A stretch of 64,000 nt of DNA from contig NZ_CP108352.1 of NCBI RefSeq assembly GCF_036237275.1, positions 4,588,001-4,652,000 of the forward strand, written 5' to 3'. Source of the DNA: Streptomyces sp. NBC_01353 (GTDB lineage Bacteria > Actinomycetota > Actinomycetes > Streptomycetales > Streptomycetaceae). The notes under the pieces are model-generated. The model had not been told where the DNA came from. It did not search any database and was given only the letters and a program-made list of their open reading frames with translations. Positions 124 through 40,273 of the stretch are shown here, in pieces (positions within the stretch are counted from its first letter, which is position 1; each line of letters begins with the position of its first letter). The translations under genes were made by a program, and so were the position numbers.

Positions 124-867
124 TCAGTCCCCCACCCGGACGAGCGCGAGGGTGATGTTGTCGGGTCCGCCGGCCTCGATGGCGGCCTTCCACAGCTCGA
201 AGGCCGCCTTCCCGTCGTCGTGCACCCGCAGCAGATCCTCGATCTCCTCGTCCGGCACCGGGTCGGTGAGGCCGTCGCTGCACACCAGATAGCGATCGCC
301 CAGGGAGAGCGGGAAGCTCACCACATGGGGCGTGACGGCGTTGTACGTGTGGCTGCCGCCGAGGGTCTGCAGGACGGCCGAGGTGGTGCGCTGTCCGGGT
401 GGGGGCGGCGGGCTGTCGTCCACGCTGACCTGGCGCAACCCGGTCTGCGTCGCGTTGTACACCTTGCTGTCGCCGACGTTGAACGACAGCAGCGACCCCT
501 CCAGGACGAGCGTGCCCGCCACCGTGGTCCCCATGGTGGCCAGGTCCGGGCGGCCGTCGGCCGCCGCGTACACGGCCCGGTTGCACAGCTCCAACGCCTC
601 GCCCATGGCCTCCGTGCCGACCAGCGCCGGCGCGAGCGCGGCGAGTCGGCGCACGACCAGCCCGCTGGCCACCTCACCGGCCGGCTGCCCGCCCAGTCCG
701 TCGGCGACGGCGACGAGAAGTGGCCGGTCGAGGGGGAACAGCATCGTCTGGGGGCTGTCGGTCACGGTCCCGCAGAGCGTCCACGGCCCGACGACGAGAC
801 TGTCCTCGTTGTGGTCGCGCAGCAGCCCCGCATGGCTCAGGGCGGTCACGGCTATGTACGGCGTCAC
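124..867 (-). CDS. PP2C-family serine/threonine protein phosphatase
   Basis: Cytosolic metal-dependent phosphatase, about 247 aa, that would dephosphorylate Ser/Thr-phosphorylated proteins, often the partner of a Pkn-type kinase. The PP2C metal-binding motifs are visible in order: RDHNEDSL near the N terminus, VADGLGGQPAGEVAS, GTTVAGTLV, CSDGLTD and a C-terminal GGPDNITLALV. No membrane segment is seen, and the length suits a stand-alone PP2C domain. The GTG start at 867 is chosen because AGGAGG lies 8 nt upstream; an in-frame extension to 945 is Arg/Gly-rich and not conserved-looking. No kinase gene is in the window, so its substrate is unknown. Confidence 0.85.
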   Translation of the reverse strand: MTPYIAVTALSHAGLLRDHNEDSLVVGPWTLCGTVTDSPQTMLFPLDRPLLVAVADGLGGQPAGEVASGLVVRRLAALAPALVGTEAMGEALELCNRAVYAAADGRPDLATMGTTVAGTLVLEGSLLSFNVGDSKVYNATQTGLRQVSVDDSPPPPPGQRTTSAVLQTLGGSHTYNAVTPHVVSFPLSLGDRYLVCSDGLTDPVPDEEIEDLLRVHDDGKAAFELWKAAIEAGGPDNITLALVRVGD

Positions 868-1029
868 GGCGTCCGCCTCCTCACGCCCTCCGCGGTCGTT
901 CCCCGGCCTCTCTTCGTGTCCTCCCCGCGCCCTCCTCGCCCCCATTGTCCCGCGCTGACATGCGGGGCGCGGTCCGCCGTCGCACGCTGGTGCTGAGCTG
1001 CCTGGCCGCCGAGGAAAGGACGTCCGTCG

Positions 1030-1329
1030 ATGTACGCGAGGCTGAGCACGTACCAGGGGTCACCCGTTCCCGTGGAGGGCGACCTGGCCGCCAAGTCGGA
1101 GGTGATCGTCAAGCTGGTGGAGACCCTGCCGGGCTTCCGGGGCGCGTACTACCTCGTCGACCGCGCCACGGGGAAGGCGACGTCGCTGACCCTGTGGGAG
1201 GACGAGGCGTCCATGGTGGCCAGCGAGGACCGGGCGGCCGCGGTACGGGACGAGTCGTCGCAGCGGGAAGGGCAGCGGGTGGTGTCGGTGGAGCACTTCG
1301 AGGTGGCGTTCAGCCGGCTGGCACCGTAG
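1030..1329 (+). CDS. Small dimeric alpha/beta-barrel (ABM monooxygenase-like) protein
   Basis: A 99-aa protein starting at ATG 1030 after a GGAAAGG ribosome site. The pattern (an opening strand MYARLSTYQG, a helix with Lys/Leu, then RGAYYLVDRATGK and SLTLWEDEASM, ending in VVSVEHFEVAFSRL) fits the antibiotic-biosynthesis monooxygenase / dimeric ferredoxin-like fold, in which two short subunits form a barrel. No cofactor motif is expected in this fold. It could act as a quinol-type monooxygenase or simply as a small-molecule-binding protein; the sequence does not decide. It lies just upstream of the XRE-cupin regulator, on the same strand. Confidence 0.6.
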   Translation: MYARLSTYQGSPVPVEGDLAAKSEVIVKLVETLPGFRGAYYLVDRATGKATSLTLWEDEASMVASEDRAAAVRDESSQREGQRVVSVEHFEVAFSRLAP

Positions 1330-2007: not shown

Positions 2008-2526
2008 GTGCCCACCATCACCCACCTCTCCCCCGAAGCGTTCGCCCCGGCCGTCGACGGCCTCGCCGAGGTCCTGGTCGACGCCGTCGCGAGCGGCGCG
2101 TCGCTGGGCTTCCTCCAGCCCTTCGACCACGAGGCCGCGGCCGCCTGGTGGCACACCCGGCAGCCGGCCCTCGACGCCGGCACCTTGAGGGTCTGGGCCG
2201 CCCACACCCCCGACGGTCTCGTCGGCACGGTGAGCCTGGCCCTCGAACCGAAGGCCAACGGCCGCCACCGCGCCGAGATCGTCAAGCTGATGGTCCACCG
2301 GAAGGCTCGGGGCCAGGGCCTCGCCCGCCGCCTGCTGTCCACGGCCGAACGGGCCGCCCAAGAAGCGGGCGTCACCCTGCTGTTGCTCGACACGGAGAGC
2401 GACAGCACGGCCGACCGCCTCTACGCGACGACCGGCTGGACGCGCTTCGGCAAGGTCCCCGCATACGCCACCGACCCCACGGGCGCGCTCCAGGACTGCA
2501 GCTTCTTCTTCAAGTCGCTGGTGTAG
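2008..2526 (+). CDS. GNAT-family N-acetyltransferase
   Basis: A 172-aa acetyl-CoA-dependent acetyltransferase. The GNAT core is clear: VWAAHTPDGLVGTVSLAL, then EIVKLMVHRKARGQGLARRL, which carries the Q/R-x-x-G-x-G/A pyrophosphate loop, and the late strand ADRLYATTGWTRFG. It resembles acyltransferases that modify small molecules or antibiotics, but the substrate is not readable. The GTG start at 2008 is supported by GAGGAAC just upstream. It ends 11 bp from the converging pentapeptide-repeat gene. Confidence 0.85.
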   Translation: MPTITHLSPEAFAPAVDGLAEVLVDAVASGASLGFLQPFDHEAAAAWWHTRQPALDAGTLRVWAAHTPDGLVGTVSLALEPKANGRHRAEIVKLMVHRKARGQGLARRLLSTAERAAQEAGVTLLLLDTESDSTADRLYATTGWTRFGKVPAYATDPTGALQDCSFFFKSLV

Positions 2527-2537
2527 GGCGGGACGCC

Positions 2538-3137
2538 TCAGGGGCTGAGCGAACCGCGCCGTACGCCGTCCAGGATCGCGTCGGTCAGGACCGTCCCCTC
2601 GGTTCTCGCCGCGATCAGCACGGCCTCCGAGAGGTCAGCGTGCGAGAGGTCGGCGTCGGTGAGTTCGGCTCCGACGAGCTTCGCGCGACGCAGGGAGGCT
2701 CCGCGCAAGGTGGCGCCGATCAGCCGCGCCCGGGAGAACGTCGCGTCGTCGGCCTGGGCGCCGCTGAGGTCGGCGCCGGTGAGGTCGCAGAGGCCGCCGT
2801 TCACCCGCGTCAGCGTCGCGTTCACCAGGGTGGCTCCGCCCAGGTCGGTGCCGGTCAGGAACGCGTCGGTGAGGTCGCAGCCGCTCAGATCGGCGCCCCG
2901 CAGGTCGGCATAGCTCAGGTGAACGCCGGTCAGGTCCGCGCCCGTGAGGTCGACGCCCGCCAGCGGGATGCCGGCGAGGTCGTTGTCGTTGCCCCACGGC
3001 TGGGTCCACGCGCGCACCAGGGAGCGCCAGTCGCCGCCGCCGGTCAGCGCGTCGCGCAGTCCGGCGAGGACGGAGTCGTTCTCCGGCCGGGCCCACCGGT
3101 CCCGTACCTCGGCCTCGTGGCTGTTCTCGTCGGTCAT
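2538..3137 (-). CDS. Pentapeptide-repeat protein, candidate immunity protein of the RHS toxin
   Basis: About 199 aa. After a short N-terminal segment (MTDENSHEAEVRDRW...), residues from about 65 onward are a run of A(D/N)LXX pentapeptides such as ADLTGVHLSYADLRGADLSG, forecasting a right-handed quadrilateral beta-helix. The ATG (3137-3135) overlaps the TGA of the RHS toxin gene in an ATGA, so it should be translationally coupled and made together with the toxin. Toxin genes of this class are normally followed directly by their immunity gene, so immunity is a reasonable inference, although pentapeptide proteins also do other things (for example gyrase protection). A longer in-frame start at 3284 lies inside the toxin gene and is unlikely. 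Confidence 0.8.
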   Translation of the reverse strand: MTDENSHEAEVRDRWARPENDSVLAGLRDALTGGGDWRSLVRAWTQPWGNDNDLAGIPLAGVDLTGADLTGVHLSYADLRGADLSGCDLTDAFLTGTDLGGATLVNATLTRVNGGLCDLTGADLSGAQADDATFSRARLIGATLRGASLRRAKLVGAELTDADLSHADLSEAVLIAARTEGTVLTDAILDGVRRGSLSP

Positions 3138-6100
3138 CCGCCTGAAGTTCCGTTCCGGTTCTGGATCTGGTGCAGGAAGCCTTTCACACGGTCGAGGTGG
3201 TAGACGGTCTCGTCGTGCTTCTTCAGGAGGACTTCGAGGCCGCGTTCCGTCATGCCGTCCGGCAGCCGTTCCATCTCCTTCCACAGCGCCTTGCGGACGT
3301 TCTCCAGGCCCTGCTGCGCCTGCGTGAGGTCCTGGACGTGGTCGAACGGTGTTCCGTCCGGCTTACGGGCCACCACCTCGCCCCCCGCCTCCCGCCGCGC
3401 CGCCGAGTAGTGGTTGTGGTCGGGGTCGGAGTTGATGCGGCCGATCGGGTCGGCCTTGATGTTCTCCAGCTTCTGGATGGCGTTCATCGCCTCGTCGCTG
3501 AGGCCGAGGCCCCGGTACGGCGAGAGACCCAGCGGGTCGGACCAGGTGAACGGGTTGTGGACGTAGGCGGCCGGGTTGGGCGCCGGGGCGAGGCCCAGCG
3601 GGTCGGGCGTCAGGTAGCGGGCGGTCTCGGGGTCGTACTGCCGGAAGTAGTTGTGGTGGAGGCCGGTTTCGGGGTCGTAGTACTGCCCCGGGAATCGCAG
3701 CGGGGTGTACGCCGTCGCGGAGCTGTTCCACGCGGTGGTGCCCCAGAGCGTGGCGCGGGCGTGCCAGGCCGGTTCGCCCGCCTCGTCGACGAGTTCGGTG
3801 GGGGTGCCCACGATGTCGGTGGCGATCGCGAAGAAGCGTTCGTCGAAGATCTCCTGGGAGGCGTCCGTGCCGAGTACGCGCTCCGTCTGGGCCAGCGGCC
3901 GGTTCTGCCGGTGGTCCCAGGTCAGGGCGACGGGGCGGGGCATCCCGGGGGCGGTGGTGGTCTGTTCGCACAGGGTCGAGCCGTCCCAGGTGAACCGGAC
4001 CTCCTCGACGACCGTCTCGCCGTCGTCGGCCAGACGCTGTTTCGCCGTGCGCCGGCCCAGCGGGTCGTACCGGTAGCGCCAGCGGGTGCCGTCGGGCGTG
4101 GTGACGGCCGTGAGGCGGTCCTCGGCGTCCCAGGTGTACCGCCAGGTGTCGGCCTTCCGGGACAGCCGGGTCTTGCGGCGCAGGGTGATCCGGCCGCCGG
4201 CGTCGTGCTCGTACCGCACCGCGCCCGCGCGGGTCACCACCGTCCCGGTGTAGCTGCGGGGGCCGGTCGCCTCGTGACCGGGATGGCCGTCGGGCCAGGA
4301 CGCGGAGGTCTGGTTGCCGGCCGCGTCGTAGGCGTACGTCTCCGTCCAGCCGGCGGCCGTCACCGTCGTCACCCGGCCCGTGGCGTCCAGGCCGTAGCGG
4401 AACGAGCCGCGCAGGGCGTCGTCGAGCGCCGTGAGGTGCCCGTCGGCGCGATAGGTGTACGTGCGGCGGTTGACCGTGCGGTCGCCGGCGGTGAGGTGCT
4501 GTCCGGTCAGCCGGCCGGCCTCGTCCCAGGCCGAGGTCAGGGCCACCGTGTCGCCGAAGGCTCGGCGCACCTCGTGTCCCGCCGCGTCGTGGGCGAAGGC
4601 GATCCGGCGTGTACCGCTGGTCAGCCGGGTGAGGAGGCCTGCCTCGTCGTAGCCGTAGGAGGTGACGTGTCCGGTGGGTGTGACGCGGCGGGCCCGGCGC
4701 CCGGCGTCGTCGTAGCCGTAGGTGAGGGGGCGGCCGTCGACGAGTTCGGCCTTGATCTCGCCGCGGCGGCCGTACGTCCGGAGCAGCTCGCAGTCGGGGC
4801 CCGTGGCCCGGATCATCCGTCCGGCCGTGTCGTACGCGTAGGTGGTGACGGCGCCTGCCGCGTCCTTCCGGACGACCCGGTCGAGCGCGTCCCGCTCGTA
4901 GGAGACGGTCTCGCCCGTGGGGGTGGTGCGGGTGACCACCTGGCCGACCGGGTCGAGGGTGTAGCCGACGGTACGCCCGTCGAAGTCGGTCTCGGACACC
5001 GTCCGGCCGGCCCGGTCGTAGCCGTACGTCCAGGTCAGGCCCTGTGGGTCGGTGACCTTGGTGAGGCGCAGCGCCGCGTCGTGCTCGAAGGTGTGGCGGG
5101 CGCCGTCCGGGCCGGTGCGGGCGGAGAGCAGGTCGAAGTGGGTGTACTCGAAGCGCGTCGTGAGGCCCGTCGCGTCGGTGTGGGCGGTGCAGTTGCCCTC
5201 GCCGTCGTACGTCCAGGACTCGGTGGAGCCGTCGGGGAGGGTGCGCCGGGCGGGATCGCCGTCTGCGTTCCATTCGAGGGTGGTGGTCGCTCCGAGAGCG
5301 TCGGTGATGCGGGTGAGCCTGCCGAAGGCGTCGCGTTCGCACCGGGTGGTGCCGCCGAGCGGGTCGGTGACCGCCACGGGCAGGCCGGCCGGGTCGCAGC
5401 GGAAGGTGGTCACGGCGCCGAACACGTCGGTGGCGGAGCGGAGATGGCCGCGGTCGTCGTACGCGTACCGGGTGGTGTGGCCGCCGGGGTCCGTGACCGA
5501 GATGAGGTTGCCCAGGTCGTCGAACTCCTGGAGCGTGCGCCCGCCGTCCGCGTCGGTGAACTCCACCGGCAGCCCCCGTGCGTCGCGGACGGTGCCGATG
5601 CGGCTGCCGTCGGCGCGGACGACCGAGAGCAGCCGGCCCTCCTCGTCGTACGAGAAGGCGGTGACACGGCCCAGGGGATCGGTGCGGGTCAGCAGGTTGC
5701 CGCGCGTGTCATGGGTGAAGCGGGTGGTGTGGCCGAGCGGGTCGGTGGTGGCGACGACCCGGCAGGCACTGTCGATCAGATGGCGGACGACGCGGCCGTC
5801 GGCGGTGGTCAGCGTGGTGACGCGGTGGCCCGTGGCGGGGTCGGGGGTGCCGTACGCCAGGGTGAGCTGGACGTGTCCTGCCTGGCCGCCCTCGCCGATC
5901 ACCCGGTCGTGCTCGTCGTAGGCGTAGTCGTAGCGGCTCTCGTTGGAGTCGATCCAGGCGATCACCCGCCGCCGGTCGTCGTACTCGAAGGTGAGGGTGG
6001 CGCCGGAGGGTCTGGTGACGGCAGTGAGGTTGCCGTCGGTGTAGGCGTAACGGACGACGTCCTGCCGGGCGCCGTCGGGGAGTTCCAGGGCCAGGCCGGC

Positions 6101-38096: not shown

Positions 38097-38570
38097 CTAC
38101 GGGATGAGTTCGCCGACGATGTCCCCGAGGGTCTCCCACCACGGCGCGGCGCCGGTGCCGAAGGCGGCGGCGAGGGCGGTGCCGACGGCCCGGTCAAGGG
38201 GCTCCGGCTCCGTGCCGGGGGCCCAGTCGTCGTCGACACGGCCGTCGCCGGAGGACTCCAGGGTGCCGAGCGGACGTCCGTCCCGGATCAGCCGGCTGTC
38301 GACGTAACCGCACGGCACGAGGCGGTAGCGCACCCCGCCGACATGGACATCGACCCGGTACGAGCGCCGCAGCAGCCGCCCTCGCGAGGGCCGGATGCGG
38401 GCGGGCTCCCCGTCGACGGTGAGGGTGAGCAGGTCGCGCTTGCGGGTCCCGATGGGGATGTGCGGGTCCGGGGTGGTTCCCGGGGCCCGTACGAGCTCCA
38501 CGGTCGGCATCCCGTACCCGGACACCCGCAGGGTGCCGGTCTGGCTGTCCAGGTCGATCTGTGCGTACAT
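38097..38570 (-). CDS. Conserved hypothetical protein (157 aa) in the LuxR/DPVWD unit
   Basis: MYAQIDLDSQTGTLRVSGYG, TPDPHIPIGTRKRDLLTLTV, VDVHVGGVRYRLVPCGYVDS, ending TGAAPWWETLGDIVGELIP. Mostly beta strand, no membrane helix, no catalytic motif that I recognise. The ATG at 38570 is 5 nt after the LuxR-type gene's stop, so the two form an operon, and the ribosome site falls inside the LuxR gene. It may be a substrate- or lipid-binding accessory of the DPVWD system (inference from position only). Confidence 0.6.
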   Translation of the reverse strand: MYAQIDLDSQTGTLRVSGYGMPTVELVRAPGTTPDPHIPIGTRKRDLLTLTVDGEPARIRPSRGRLLRRSYRVDVHVGGVRYRLVPCGYVDSRLIRDGRPLGTLESSGDGRVDDDWAPGTEPEPLDRAVGTALAAAFGTGAAPWWETLGDIVGELIP

Positions 38571-38575
38571 TTCGG

Positions 38576-39559
38576 TCAGCGGTCCTGGTTCAGAATTCCG
38601 GACTGGGCGATGAGATAGCCGAGTTGGGCTCGGCTGCCGCTGCCGAGGGCGGCGGCGAGCTTGGCGATGTGGGCGCGGCAGGTACGGACGTTCATGCCGA
38701 GCCGGCGGGCGATGGCCTCGTCGACGTGGCCCTCGACGAGGAGCTTGGCGATGGAGCGCTGGATGCCGCTGATGCCGTCGTGGGTCTGCGCGTAGGGCAC
38801 CTGCTCGCCGAACGGGGTGGCCCGGGCCCAGGACTGTTCGAAGACGGTCGCAAGATACTCGACCAGGCCGGGATGGCGCAGTTCCAGGGCGACTTGGCGG
38901 TCCTGACGGGCGGGTATCAGGGCCACCGAGCGGTCGATGATGATGAGCCGCTCGATGGACTCCTCCAGGGTCCGGACCTGGAGCCGGTCCATGCCGGCCT
39001 GTTCCAGATAGACCTGCATTCCGTGGCTGTGGCGCGCCGTGTGCTGGTAGAGGGTGCGGACGCGGACCCCGCGTTCGAGGAGCGGCTGGATGCGGTGGAG
39101 CGCCGTGTTGAGGGTGTGTTCGCTGCGTCCGCCGCCGGGCTGGATGGTCAGCAACTCCTGCGAGCACTCGGCGGTGGCGCGGCCGAGGACGGCGTCGATG
39201 CGGTTGATGCCTTCGAGGACGGTGATCGCGTGGGTCGTCGAGGGGTCCTGGGCGCTGATGGCCATGAACGGCTCGAAAACGCTGGATAGTCCCGTGGCCA
39301 GGCTGCGACGCTCCTGGATTTCCCGCTCCAGGGGGTGGACGAGCCGGGCCAGTGCCGCCGAGGGTGGGACCGGCCGCAGCCACGCGGGGTCGTCGGCGTC
39401 GGGGTGGAGAAGTGCCAGGTCCATGAGGCAGGGCGCGGCTTCTGCCTCGCTCCTGGTTATTCGCCCGGTACGCAACGCACTGGCGTACAAGTCCGATCCG
39501 GCTGCACAGAGATCGACATGACCGTGGGGATGTGTCGCTTCTGGTTCGTTCTGCGGCAT
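38576..39559 (-). CDS. LuxR-family transcriptional regulator with TrmB-like middle domain
   Basis: A 327-aa regulator. The middle (about 110-240) resembles a TrmB/PLD-like effector domain: SQELLTIQPGGGRSEHTLNT, LLERGVRVRTLYQHTARHSH, LEESIERLIIIDRSVALIPA. The C-terminal LuxR HTH is about 270-325 (SIAKLLVEGHVDEAIARRLG, MNVRTCRAHIAKLAAALGSG). It is divergent from the DPVWD peptide gene, with only 109 bp between, so it probably controls that pair. ATG 39559 follows GGGGGGTG; ATG 39595 is a weaker alternative. Confidence 0.8.
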   Translation of the reverse strand: MPQNEPEATHPHGHVDLCAAGSDLYASALRTGRITRSEAEAAPCLMDLALLHPDADDPAWLRPVPPSAALARLVHPLEREIQERRSLATGLSSVFEPFMAISAQDPSTTHAITVLEGINRIDAVLGRATAECSQELLTIQPGGGRSEHTLNTALHRIQPLLERGVRVRTLYQHTARHSHGMQVYLEQAGMDRLQVRTLEESIERLIIIDRSVALIPARQDRQVALELRHPGLVEYLATVFEQSWARATPFGEQVPYAQTHDGISGIQRSIAKLLVEGHVDEAIARRLGMNVRTCRAHIAKLAAALGSGSRAQLGYLIAQSGILNQDR

Positions 39560-39576
39560 TTGAACACCCCCCAGGA

Positions 39577-39591
39577 TCCTGTATTTCAGGA
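39577..39591. promoter_or_regulatory. Short inverted repeat in the LuxR/DPVWD divergent region
   Basis: TCCTG-TATTT-CAGGA, 5-bp arms with a 5-nt spacer, lies just upstream of the LuxR start and about 80 nt from the peptide start. It is a possible operator, but such short palindromes occur by chance. Confidence 0.35.
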
Positions 39592-39668
39592 ACATGATGC
39601 ATTGCCCTGGTGGTGGAAGCGCAAAGACTGAGCCATCGTCTTGTACGCGGGGGAGAGGAAACCATCAA

Positions 39669-39956
39669 GTGAGGTCGAAGCCGCTCATGTCCAGAAAACT
39701 GCTTCGCTCGGTACTTGCTTCCGTCTTCATAGGGGCGGCGGCAGTAGGAGCGCTGGCCACCAGCGACCCGGTATGGGACAGCGCTCCTGTCAGTGTTGTC
39801 GCCGCTCCCGGTGATCCGGTGTGGGATGTCGCCCCGGCCGGTGATCCTGTGTGGGACGTATCTCCGGCGGGTGTGACCGACCCGGTGTGGGACGCGTCCC
39901 CGGCCGCCCAGGCCGATCCGGTGTGGGACTCCTCCCCGGCGGGCGCGGACGCATGA
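39669..39956 (+). CDS. Secreted peptide with five DPVWD repeats
   Basis: A 95-aa pre-protein. The signal peptide is clear: basic start (VRSKPLMSRKLLRS), hydrophobic core VLASVFIGAAAVGA, and an ALA-type cleavage site. The mature part is acidic and carries five copies of DPVWD(S/V/A)(A/S)P, at 39765-39938, separated by 2 to 8 residues rich in Ala, Gly and Val. There is no cysteine, Lys or Arg in the mature part. The GTG at 39669 follows GAGAGGAAA; ATG 39687 is a second possibility. It ends in an ATGA overlap with the next gene. I know no characterised family of this kind. Confidence 0.85.
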   Translation: MRSKPLMSRKLLRSVLASVFIGAAAVGALATSDPVWDSAPVSVVAAPGDPVWDVAPAGDPVWDVSPAGVTDPVWDASPAAQADPVWDSSPAGADA

Positions 39957-40273
39957 CCGTGCCGCCGGACGACCGGGTCTTCCGGCGAGAGATGGCTTCG
40001 GCCTATCGATCCGGGTGGCATTTCATCGATCTCGTCACGGCCATCCCCCACCGTGGCGATTCGTTGATGGTCACCCTCTTCGGAGAACCGATCGTCGTCG
40101 CTCGTGAGCAGGACGAGGACGTTCGCGCCTACCGGTGTCTGCGCCGGCCCCGCGGAGCCCCGCAGCCCGTTCGCTGTGCCATCCGGTACGGCATGATTTT
40201 CGTCAATCTCGACCAGCGGGACCACCAGCTGCTCGAGCCCGAGACCATCACCGCCACCCCCCGCAGTGCCTGA
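39953..40273 (+). CDS. Degenerate Rieske-like protein, coupled to the DPVWD peptide
   Basis: A 106-aa protein. The pattern SAYRSGWHFIDLVTAIPHRG, DSLMVTLFGEPIVVAREQDE, then VRAYRCLRRPRGAPQPVRCA and YGMIFVNLDQRD follows the N-terminal strands of Rieske [2Fe-2S] domains of ring-hydroxylating oxygenases (GDSxxVxLxGEPIVVxRxxDGxVRAYxN), but the CXH...CXXH cluster ligands are mostly lost: one Cys remains in each half and the histidines are replaced. It is therefore unlikely to hold a normal cluster. Its ATG overlaps the peptide stop (39953-39956), so the two are made together. No signal peptide. Confidence 0.6.
   Translation: MTVPPDDRVFRREMASAYRSGWHFIDLVTAIPHRGDSLMVTLFGEPIVVAREQDEDVRAYRCLRRPRGAPQPVRCAIRYGMIFVNLDQRDHQLLEPETITATPRSA

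Follow-up and report, generated by a model that had tools for sequence, protein, structure and literature searches.

Between the dnaK-grpE-dnaJ-hspR genes and clpB, beside a heat-shock cluster of Streptomyces sp. NBC_01353, lies a small gene for a secreted-looking protein that repeats the sequence DPVWD five times. What purpose do these repeats serve, and which neighboring gene product, if any, recognizes them? We analyzed the window, the stretch of 64,000 nucleotides that contains this locus, together with related loci from other genomes. The features concerned are the following, LuxR1 residue numbers being counted from the open-frame end at 39595 throughout.

38576..39559, minus strand: LuxR1, a predicted TrmB/PLD-like sensor with a LuxR-type HTH and putative peptide receptor; the open frame extends to 39595
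39577..39601, no strand assigned: candidate operator, the conserved block TCCTG-N5-CAGGA then ACATGATGCA, from the alignment of 196 loci
39669..39956, plus strand: peptide precursor, 95 aa, with a GTG start; an alternative ATG is possible at 39687
39765-39779, 39813-39827, 39843-39857, 39879-39893 and 39915-39929, plus strand: DPVWD cores 1-5, within the precursor (39669-39956)
39953..40273, plus strand: Rieske-derived protein, 106 aa, whose start overlaps the precursor stop (ATGA) and whose [2Fe-2S] cluster-binding segment is lost

The precursor has a basic and hydrophobic N-terminus up to ..GALA|TS, where the cleavage site was placed by eye. DPVWD then occurs five times without change, at residues 33, 49, 59, 71 and 83; Cys, Lys and Arg are absent after residue 30. 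An initial annotation of this DNA had described the signal-bearing repeat ORF, the ATGA overlap of the 95-aa and 106-aa ORFs and a divergent LuxR/TrmB-like regulator, all of which are borne out; the start of LuxR1 at 39559 lies 109 bp from the precursor GTG. A further gene at 38097, counted there as a possible fourth partner, exists in the window but was rejected as a member of the set, since a relative was matched in just 3 of 100 long loci.

To what extent this set is conserved was examined in 210 loci (L026-L235); of these, 130 were selected through a match to the Rieske-like protein and 80 through a match to LuxR1, and some genomes are counted twice. The Rieske hit was found in all 210, and in 208 the Rieske-like gene was preceded by a secreted-looking precursor: 200 came from an initial search that required Trp and start patterns, and eight more from looser or hand-set patterns. 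The two excluded loci are L144, a second Rieske copy with no peptide, and L148, a true dioxygenase. The 208 loci collapse to 196 distinct precursor-Rieske pairs. Among the 210, all 80 loci fetched via LuxR1 alone had a precursor, and 89 of 89 further loci had one as well. As a side observation, the copy in L144 (G023:C1:93194-93517) is distant, about 68% identical, and no LuxR or peptide gene was found beside it.

The 106-aa protein was matched in 127 of 150 genomes of the genus (E ≤ 1e-3). In four of these (G048, G055, G073 and G086), from which L148 was fetched, the match is confined to open frames of 414-551 aa, and by our reading 123 of the 150 carry the Rieske-like gene. LuxR1 orthologs at E ≤ 1e-60 were found in none of the 24 genomes searched among the 27 without the Rieske-like gene; in most matching genomes the LuxR1 query scores 1.1e-122 or better. 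Beyond the genus, no Rieske-like gene was found at E ≤ 1e-12, the matches in the class (20 of 246 genomes, 1 of 103 genera) all falling in the genus itself. Mapping of seven query genes in the 100 long loci placed LuxR1 divergently within 700 bp in 98, with ClpB nearby in 98 and PPOX in 82. The dedicated, co-occurring set envisaged in the initial annotation is supported both by the constancy of the pair and by the absence of LuxR1 from the Rieske-less genomes searched.

All 196 distinct pairs contain at least one core of the pattern [D/E/N]-x-x-W in the precursor, the copy number ranging from 1 to 12. Single copies occur in 43 precursors; among the 153 with several, all copies are identical in 145 (shuffled labels: mean 4.3, maximum 12, a shuffle that takes no account of relatedness) and eight have mixed cores. 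Between species we count 46 core tetrapeptides, for example DPVW, EPSW, DSHW, DTSW, DIGW and NSSW. The repeats thus differ between species and hardly inside one precursor; free variation, which the initial annotation had named as evidence against a dedicated system, was not found, and its idea of multiple copies of a Trp-containing peptide gains support from the identical cores. In 60 of the 196, the precursor terminates one residue past the last Trp (..DSKWD and ..DTVWD, for example), and in three of the most divergent loci it ends in DPAWD or DPTWG. The endings in the 60 precursors suggest that the signal form may be a C-terminal pentapeptide.

Repeats of this kind could also belong to a structural or surface protein, homogenized by slippage, with LuxR1 a mere neighbor, and a copy number anywhere between 1 and 12 would be in keeping with that. 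Over 744 within-precursor copy pairs, however, the core codons comprise 1588 identical, 626 synonymous and 18 non-synonymous comparisons, against 517, 519 and 1642, respectively, for the linker codons of the same pairs. Because 626 synonymous differences face only 18 non-synonymous ones, the core copies are not merely recent duplicates: the amino acids are kept while synonymous codons differ between copies. The 43 single-copy precursors likewise argue against a structural repeat, as does the covariation described below, which is specific to sensor columns of LuxR1 and does not extend to the Rieske gene that overlaps the precursor. We consider this explanation extremely improbable.

The Rieske-like protein, whose gene overlaps that of the precursor, is the partner proposed in the initial annotation. 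It is matched by the NCBIfam model GbcA with an E-value of 9.5e-8, partially and far under that model's whole-protein cut-off, and by Pfam Rieske with 15.3 bits (cut-off 20.3); a profile built from 74 orthologs matches ring-hydroxylating dioxygenase alpha subunits with a best E of 1.3e-5. Its structural model has a pLDDT of 69, and the best fold match given by Foldseek, to the alpha subunit of a biphenyl dioxygenase, is weak (E 0.045). The degenerate Rieske relation proposed in the initial annotation therefore holds by sequence, while the support from the fold is weak. Judged by these matches, the 106-aa protein descends from a ring-hydroxylating dioxygenase alpha subunit, more precisely from its Rieske domain. 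It comprises part of that domain only, the catalytic domain being absent. In near orthologs the first ligand motif reads C-L-R, with His replaced by Arg, and that Cys is gone in L145-L147; the second motif is deleted, and the CxH and CxxH ligands are not found. Since the cluster ligand set is lacking, the usual Rieske redox role is impossible. The protein is well conserved (77-90% identity to that of the window in alignment A2), and no signal sequence is evident by eye.

None of 38 columns of the Rieske-like protein covaries with the core (the lowest p is 0.10 for x(-2) and 0.03 for x(-1)), and we rejected this protein as the specificity partner. The earlier suggestion that it binds or modifies the peptide is not supported, given this result and the missing ligand set; the signal resides in the LuxR sensor instead. 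A constant task, such as holding the precursor or tuning LuxR1, is what we infer for it. The same findings bear on a RiPP-like product, in which the cores would undergo modification and be set free as a bioactive peptide, with LuxR1 as a regulator that senses this product. Such a system would account for a precursor with a signal and several cores and for the small protein coupled to it, but between hspR and clpB the window holds no candidate for a modifying enzyme, and the Rieske-like protein is without cluster ligands; we find this origin quite unlikely.

The PLD-like sensor of TrmB is present in LuxR1 according to a profile match to 5box (E 4e-7) and a Foldseek match to 5bpi (E 2e-12). The Pfam families TbsP_N (19.3 bits, cut-off 27.1) and GerE (17.6 bits, cut-off 23.5) were both scored under their cut-offs, and the LuxR1 profile matches the HTH of DosR/DevR with an E of 1.4e-6; the model of the protein has a pTM of 0.52. 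No TPR was found among the listed hits of the Pfam scan, the PDB profile search and the fold search. On these profile and model comparisons, LuxR1 is a TrmB/PLD-like sensor fused to a probable LuxR-type HTH.

Core distance correlates with distance in the LuxR1 sensor, with a partial rho of 0.33 when HTH, Rieske and ClpB are controlled for (179 genomes, 0 of 300 permutations) and of 0.41 with LuxR2, the tandem LuxR, as the control (105 genomes); the control partial correlations lie between −0.06 and 0.03, LuxR2 itself giving −0.02 (105 genomes). At the level of residues, MI-APC pairs x(-2) with LuxR1 positions 148 (z 17.1) and 169 (z 13.5) and x(-1) with 157 (z 11.4), the 99.9th percentile of all pairs being 7.3; a weaker signal between the acidic core position and 121/122 (z 5.0-5.5) falls below that percentile. 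When the main LuxR1 columns are left out of the tree, position 148 changes 27 times and x(-2) 33 times over 356 branches, and 21 of the changes at 148 fall on branches where x(-2) changes too (p 2e-20, p-values being uncorrected for about 208 columns). The best x(-2) co-change p elsewhere is 0.10 for the Rieske-like protein, 0.013 for ClpB and 1e-4 for LuxR2. For x(-1), the best columns on the tree are 161, 155 and 164, with 157 outside the top 14, and residue 26, outside the PLD-like part, co-changes with x(-2) too (p 1.4e-5). The distance and tree tests correct for relatedness in part, and ten of the 196 LuxR1 rows, absent from the distance, MI and tree analyses, were read separately afterwards. 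Linkage alone cannot explain the covariation of LuxR1, because the Rieske gene, which overlaps the precursor, shows none, with the caveat that the Rieske protein varies less than LuxR1. As far as covariation can identify it, the partner matched to the peptide core is the divergent LuxR1 and not the Rieske-like protein.

The pairing can be written as a simple code. Ser at x(-2) accompanies M148 with D169 (94 of 94), Thr accompanies D169 with V148 (n = 47) or L148 (n = 2), Pro accompanies L148 with V or I169 (9 of 9), and Ile, Leu or Val accompanies G, A or S169 (34 of 34). The LuxR1 of the window has L148, I169 and R157. The code fits 186 of 186 aligned LuxR1 rows (shuffled mean 67, maximum 86), a figure that omits the EPSW clade with L148/M169, which the code does not cover; the ten rows outside the aligned table add five fits and five no-calls, all EPSW with L148/M169. 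The resulting 191 of 196 loci, with five no-calls, is a fit and not a test, because the code was written after the covariation table had been viewed. For x(-1), R157 was present in 0 of 35 rows with a basic residue there, against 102 of 151.

The code, fixed beforehand, was correct in 62 of 67 held-out loci. These remained after 22 of 89 had been set aside for a LuxR1 at least 97% identical to one in the first set, and at least one of them (L274) is from a genome of the first set, whose L039 LuxR1 row was missing. Three of the five misses are EPSW loci with L148/M169, for which the code makes no call; by their residues they are consistent with a rule in which L148 and a hydrophobic residue at 169 go with Pro. 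The other two are DFGW loci with A148/A169, where Ala at both positions would make the room that a larger core side chain needs; the same pair of Ala residues occurs in two DLxW loci.

Across the 196 aligned regions corresponding to 39577-39601, conservation is at least 95% for GAACATGATGC and at least 80% for most of TCCTG-N5-CAGG. The full conserved block has one perfect copy in the genome, at 39577-39601, and is partly coding if LuxR1 starts at 39595. We read it as a putative LuxR1 operator for autoregulation. A broad regulon via the full block was rejected: 23 sites occur at up to three mismatches (one perfect), and the backward control gives 11. No sigma-70-like promoter was found.

Two or three LuxR genes occur in 78 of the 100 long loci, one or two extra genes adjoining LuxR1 (in L060 and L145, for example). 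LuxR2 was rejected as a receptor of the local peptide, with a code fit of 39 of 112 against 27.6 (22-33) in shuffles; since the first extra LuxR fits in only these 39, the extra LuxRs may read other peptides. A second pair of the same kind lies elsewhere in the genome of the window:

G000:C1:4757949-4759130: second TrmB-LuxR (L237/L336) with a divergent precursor that has three DTGWG copies, the last one C-terminal

This LuxR is 39% identical to LuxR1 and carries V148/D169, for which the code predicts Thr, as found in the DTGWG core opposite it. LuxR proteins of the L237 type were detected in 13 of 81 genomes (E ≤ 1e-70; 13 loci). A DxxW peptide is present in three of the 13 loci; it is DTGW each time, and the receptor has V or I148 together with D169. 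One of the three peptide genes lies on the same strand as its LuxR rather than divergently; no convincing peptide was found in the other ten.

A third type, L239, is 32-35% identical to LuxR1 and has matches in 50 of 121 genomes. In 23 of 30 loci it is accompanied by a short ORF that looks secreted and terminates one or two residues after a W. The endings include TLGWQ, DAGWQ (repeated), DMGWQ, DMIWQ, DMSWQ, DLGWQ, DFGWQ, DSGWQ and DVTWGG, as well as TTVWE, VIGWD and SINWD, each repeated; the seven loci without a convincing peptide were dropped by eye. Endings of W plus zero to two residues occur in 26 of 85 secretory-like ORFs of the 30 loci (three dismissed) versus 33 of 489 elsewhere, a background that omits DxxW ORFs. 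Two associations were seen in the 23 loci, that of 148 with x(-2) and that of 157 with x(-1), neither being reached in any of 5000 permutations. Q157 is present in 15 of 15 with G at x(-1) and in 0 of 8 with other residues; these rows are interrelated, and the permutation does not correct for kinship. The swapped pairings, 148 with x(-1) and 157 with x(-2), were not significant (2777 and 3698 of 5000). Since related LuxR proteins have their own W-peptides, sequence evidence makes parallel peptide channels within one genome likely.

Some observations were made alongside. L239 itself (397-573 and 758-1141, minus strand) comprises a LuxR paralog, a precursor ending in DTLGWQ and a 127-aa ORF between them; the next gene (2414-3487, minus strand) presumably resembles a clavaminate synthase-type oxygenase. 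In L241, a small secreted-looking ORF with ENDWP (2491-2682, minus strand) is convergent to another LuxR paralog.

What mechanism would connect these parts? The locus very probably belongs, on the comparative evidence, to a peptide-pheromone family with intracellular TrmB-LuxR receptors. The precursor, we infer, would leave the cell via the Sec route and outside be cut into short acidic-Trp peptides that are about one residue longer than D-x-x-W, DPVWD in this case. The peptide would return into the cell and bind the TrmB/PLD-like sensor domain of LuxR1, which would then control its own divergent promoter and other genes. Within LuxR1, the peptide would be held in place by its constant acidic residue and its Trp. 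Its x(-2) would face residues 148 and 169, and its x(-1) would face 157 together with the 155-165 stretch; such contacts would give each species its own pherotype.

Covariation indicates recognition, not its location, and LuxR1 might instead bind the core of the cytoplasmic precursor and report the state of secretion, with no cell-to-cell signal. The coupled Rieske-like protein, with no evident signal sequence, could hold the precursor in such an export checkpoint. An internal gauge, however, needs no core that differs between species, and identical cores amid varied linkers, together with the 60 of 196 precursors ending just past Trp, fit release of a short peptide; we regard the checkpoint as unlikely.

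Returning to the pheromone reading, we think it reasonably probable that it represents a large class of peptide quorum sensing in Streptomyces, so far undescribed: TrmB-LuxR receptors and D-x-x-W peptides, with a code of two positions in which x(-2) is matched by 148/169 and x(-1) by 157, dozens of pherotypes, several parallel channels in a genome and orphan receptors that might eavesdrop, acting upstream of antibiotics or development. Streptomyces produce antibiotics in large number, and gamma-butyrolactones are their well-known signals. If the reading is correct, a peptide pheromone found in much of the genus and with a readable receptor code would be a new handle on silent antibiotic clusters, would supply natural insulated signal-receptor pairs usable in synthetic biology, and could be tested as the candidate behind an imported oligopeptide signal. 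As to output, a passage in PMC6585502 places a transposon insertion in SCO3664 ("regulator") among those raising actinorhodin more than 50-fold in S. coelicolor, and sizes of 327 and 394 aa are listed for SCO3665 and SCO3666 in a table of PMC3282765. The LuxR ORFs of L114 and L117 have starts that give 327 and 394 aa; by gene order and these matching sizes, SCO3664 would be LuxR1. The link to actinorhodin via SCO3664 is suggestive only.

A close analogy is to the RRNPP systems, which use a short, often C-terminal peptide in strain-specific pairs. In these (Rap-Phr, PlcR-PapR, NprR, ComR and AimR-AimP), a secreted propeptide gene lies beside an intracellular receptor gene, according to a passage in PMC10075063; the present loci would share this arrangement, with a signal-like precursor adjacent in 208 of 210 and an end one residue past Trp in 60 of 196. 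Unlike RRNPP, the receptor is predicted to be TrmB/PLD-like with a LuxR-type HTH and no TPR among the listed hits, the host is an actinomycete, of the Actinomycetota, and the precursor is often multi-copy. Actinobacterial signals are typically enzyme-made small molecules in the account given in that passage (PMC10075063), and an excerpt of PMC13220807 names gamma-butyrolactones for Streptomyces. An imported oligopeptide signal is described for S. coelicolor, the BldK importer and a 655-Da signal, in a passage of PMC9640686, which also suggests that different strains may use different peptides. BldK and our locus might have in common an imported Streptomyces oligopeptide. In the open-access library searched, no description of the locus, the receptor family or the peptide was found among the matches listed.

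Yeast alpha-factor and animal neuropeptide precursors carry several copies of one signal peptide per secreted precursor; unlike these, the present system is bacterial and its putative receptor an intracellular transcription factor. Archaeal TrmB has its HTH at the N-terminus. TrmB and TrmBL2 share the PLD-like sensor with LuxR1 (TrmBL2 profile E 4e-7, Foldseek E 2e-12), but in LuxR1 a predicted LuxR-type HTH is C-terminal to it. Residues 6-66 and, weakly (0.7 bits), 79-93 of the 106-aa protein align to the flanks of the cluster-binding region in the dioxygenase alpha subunit 9jp5, unlike which it lacks that region and the catalytic domain. By its parts, then, the system matched no described peptide-signaling family that we found; by analogy, the mechanism we propose would be one of intracellular peptide signaling.
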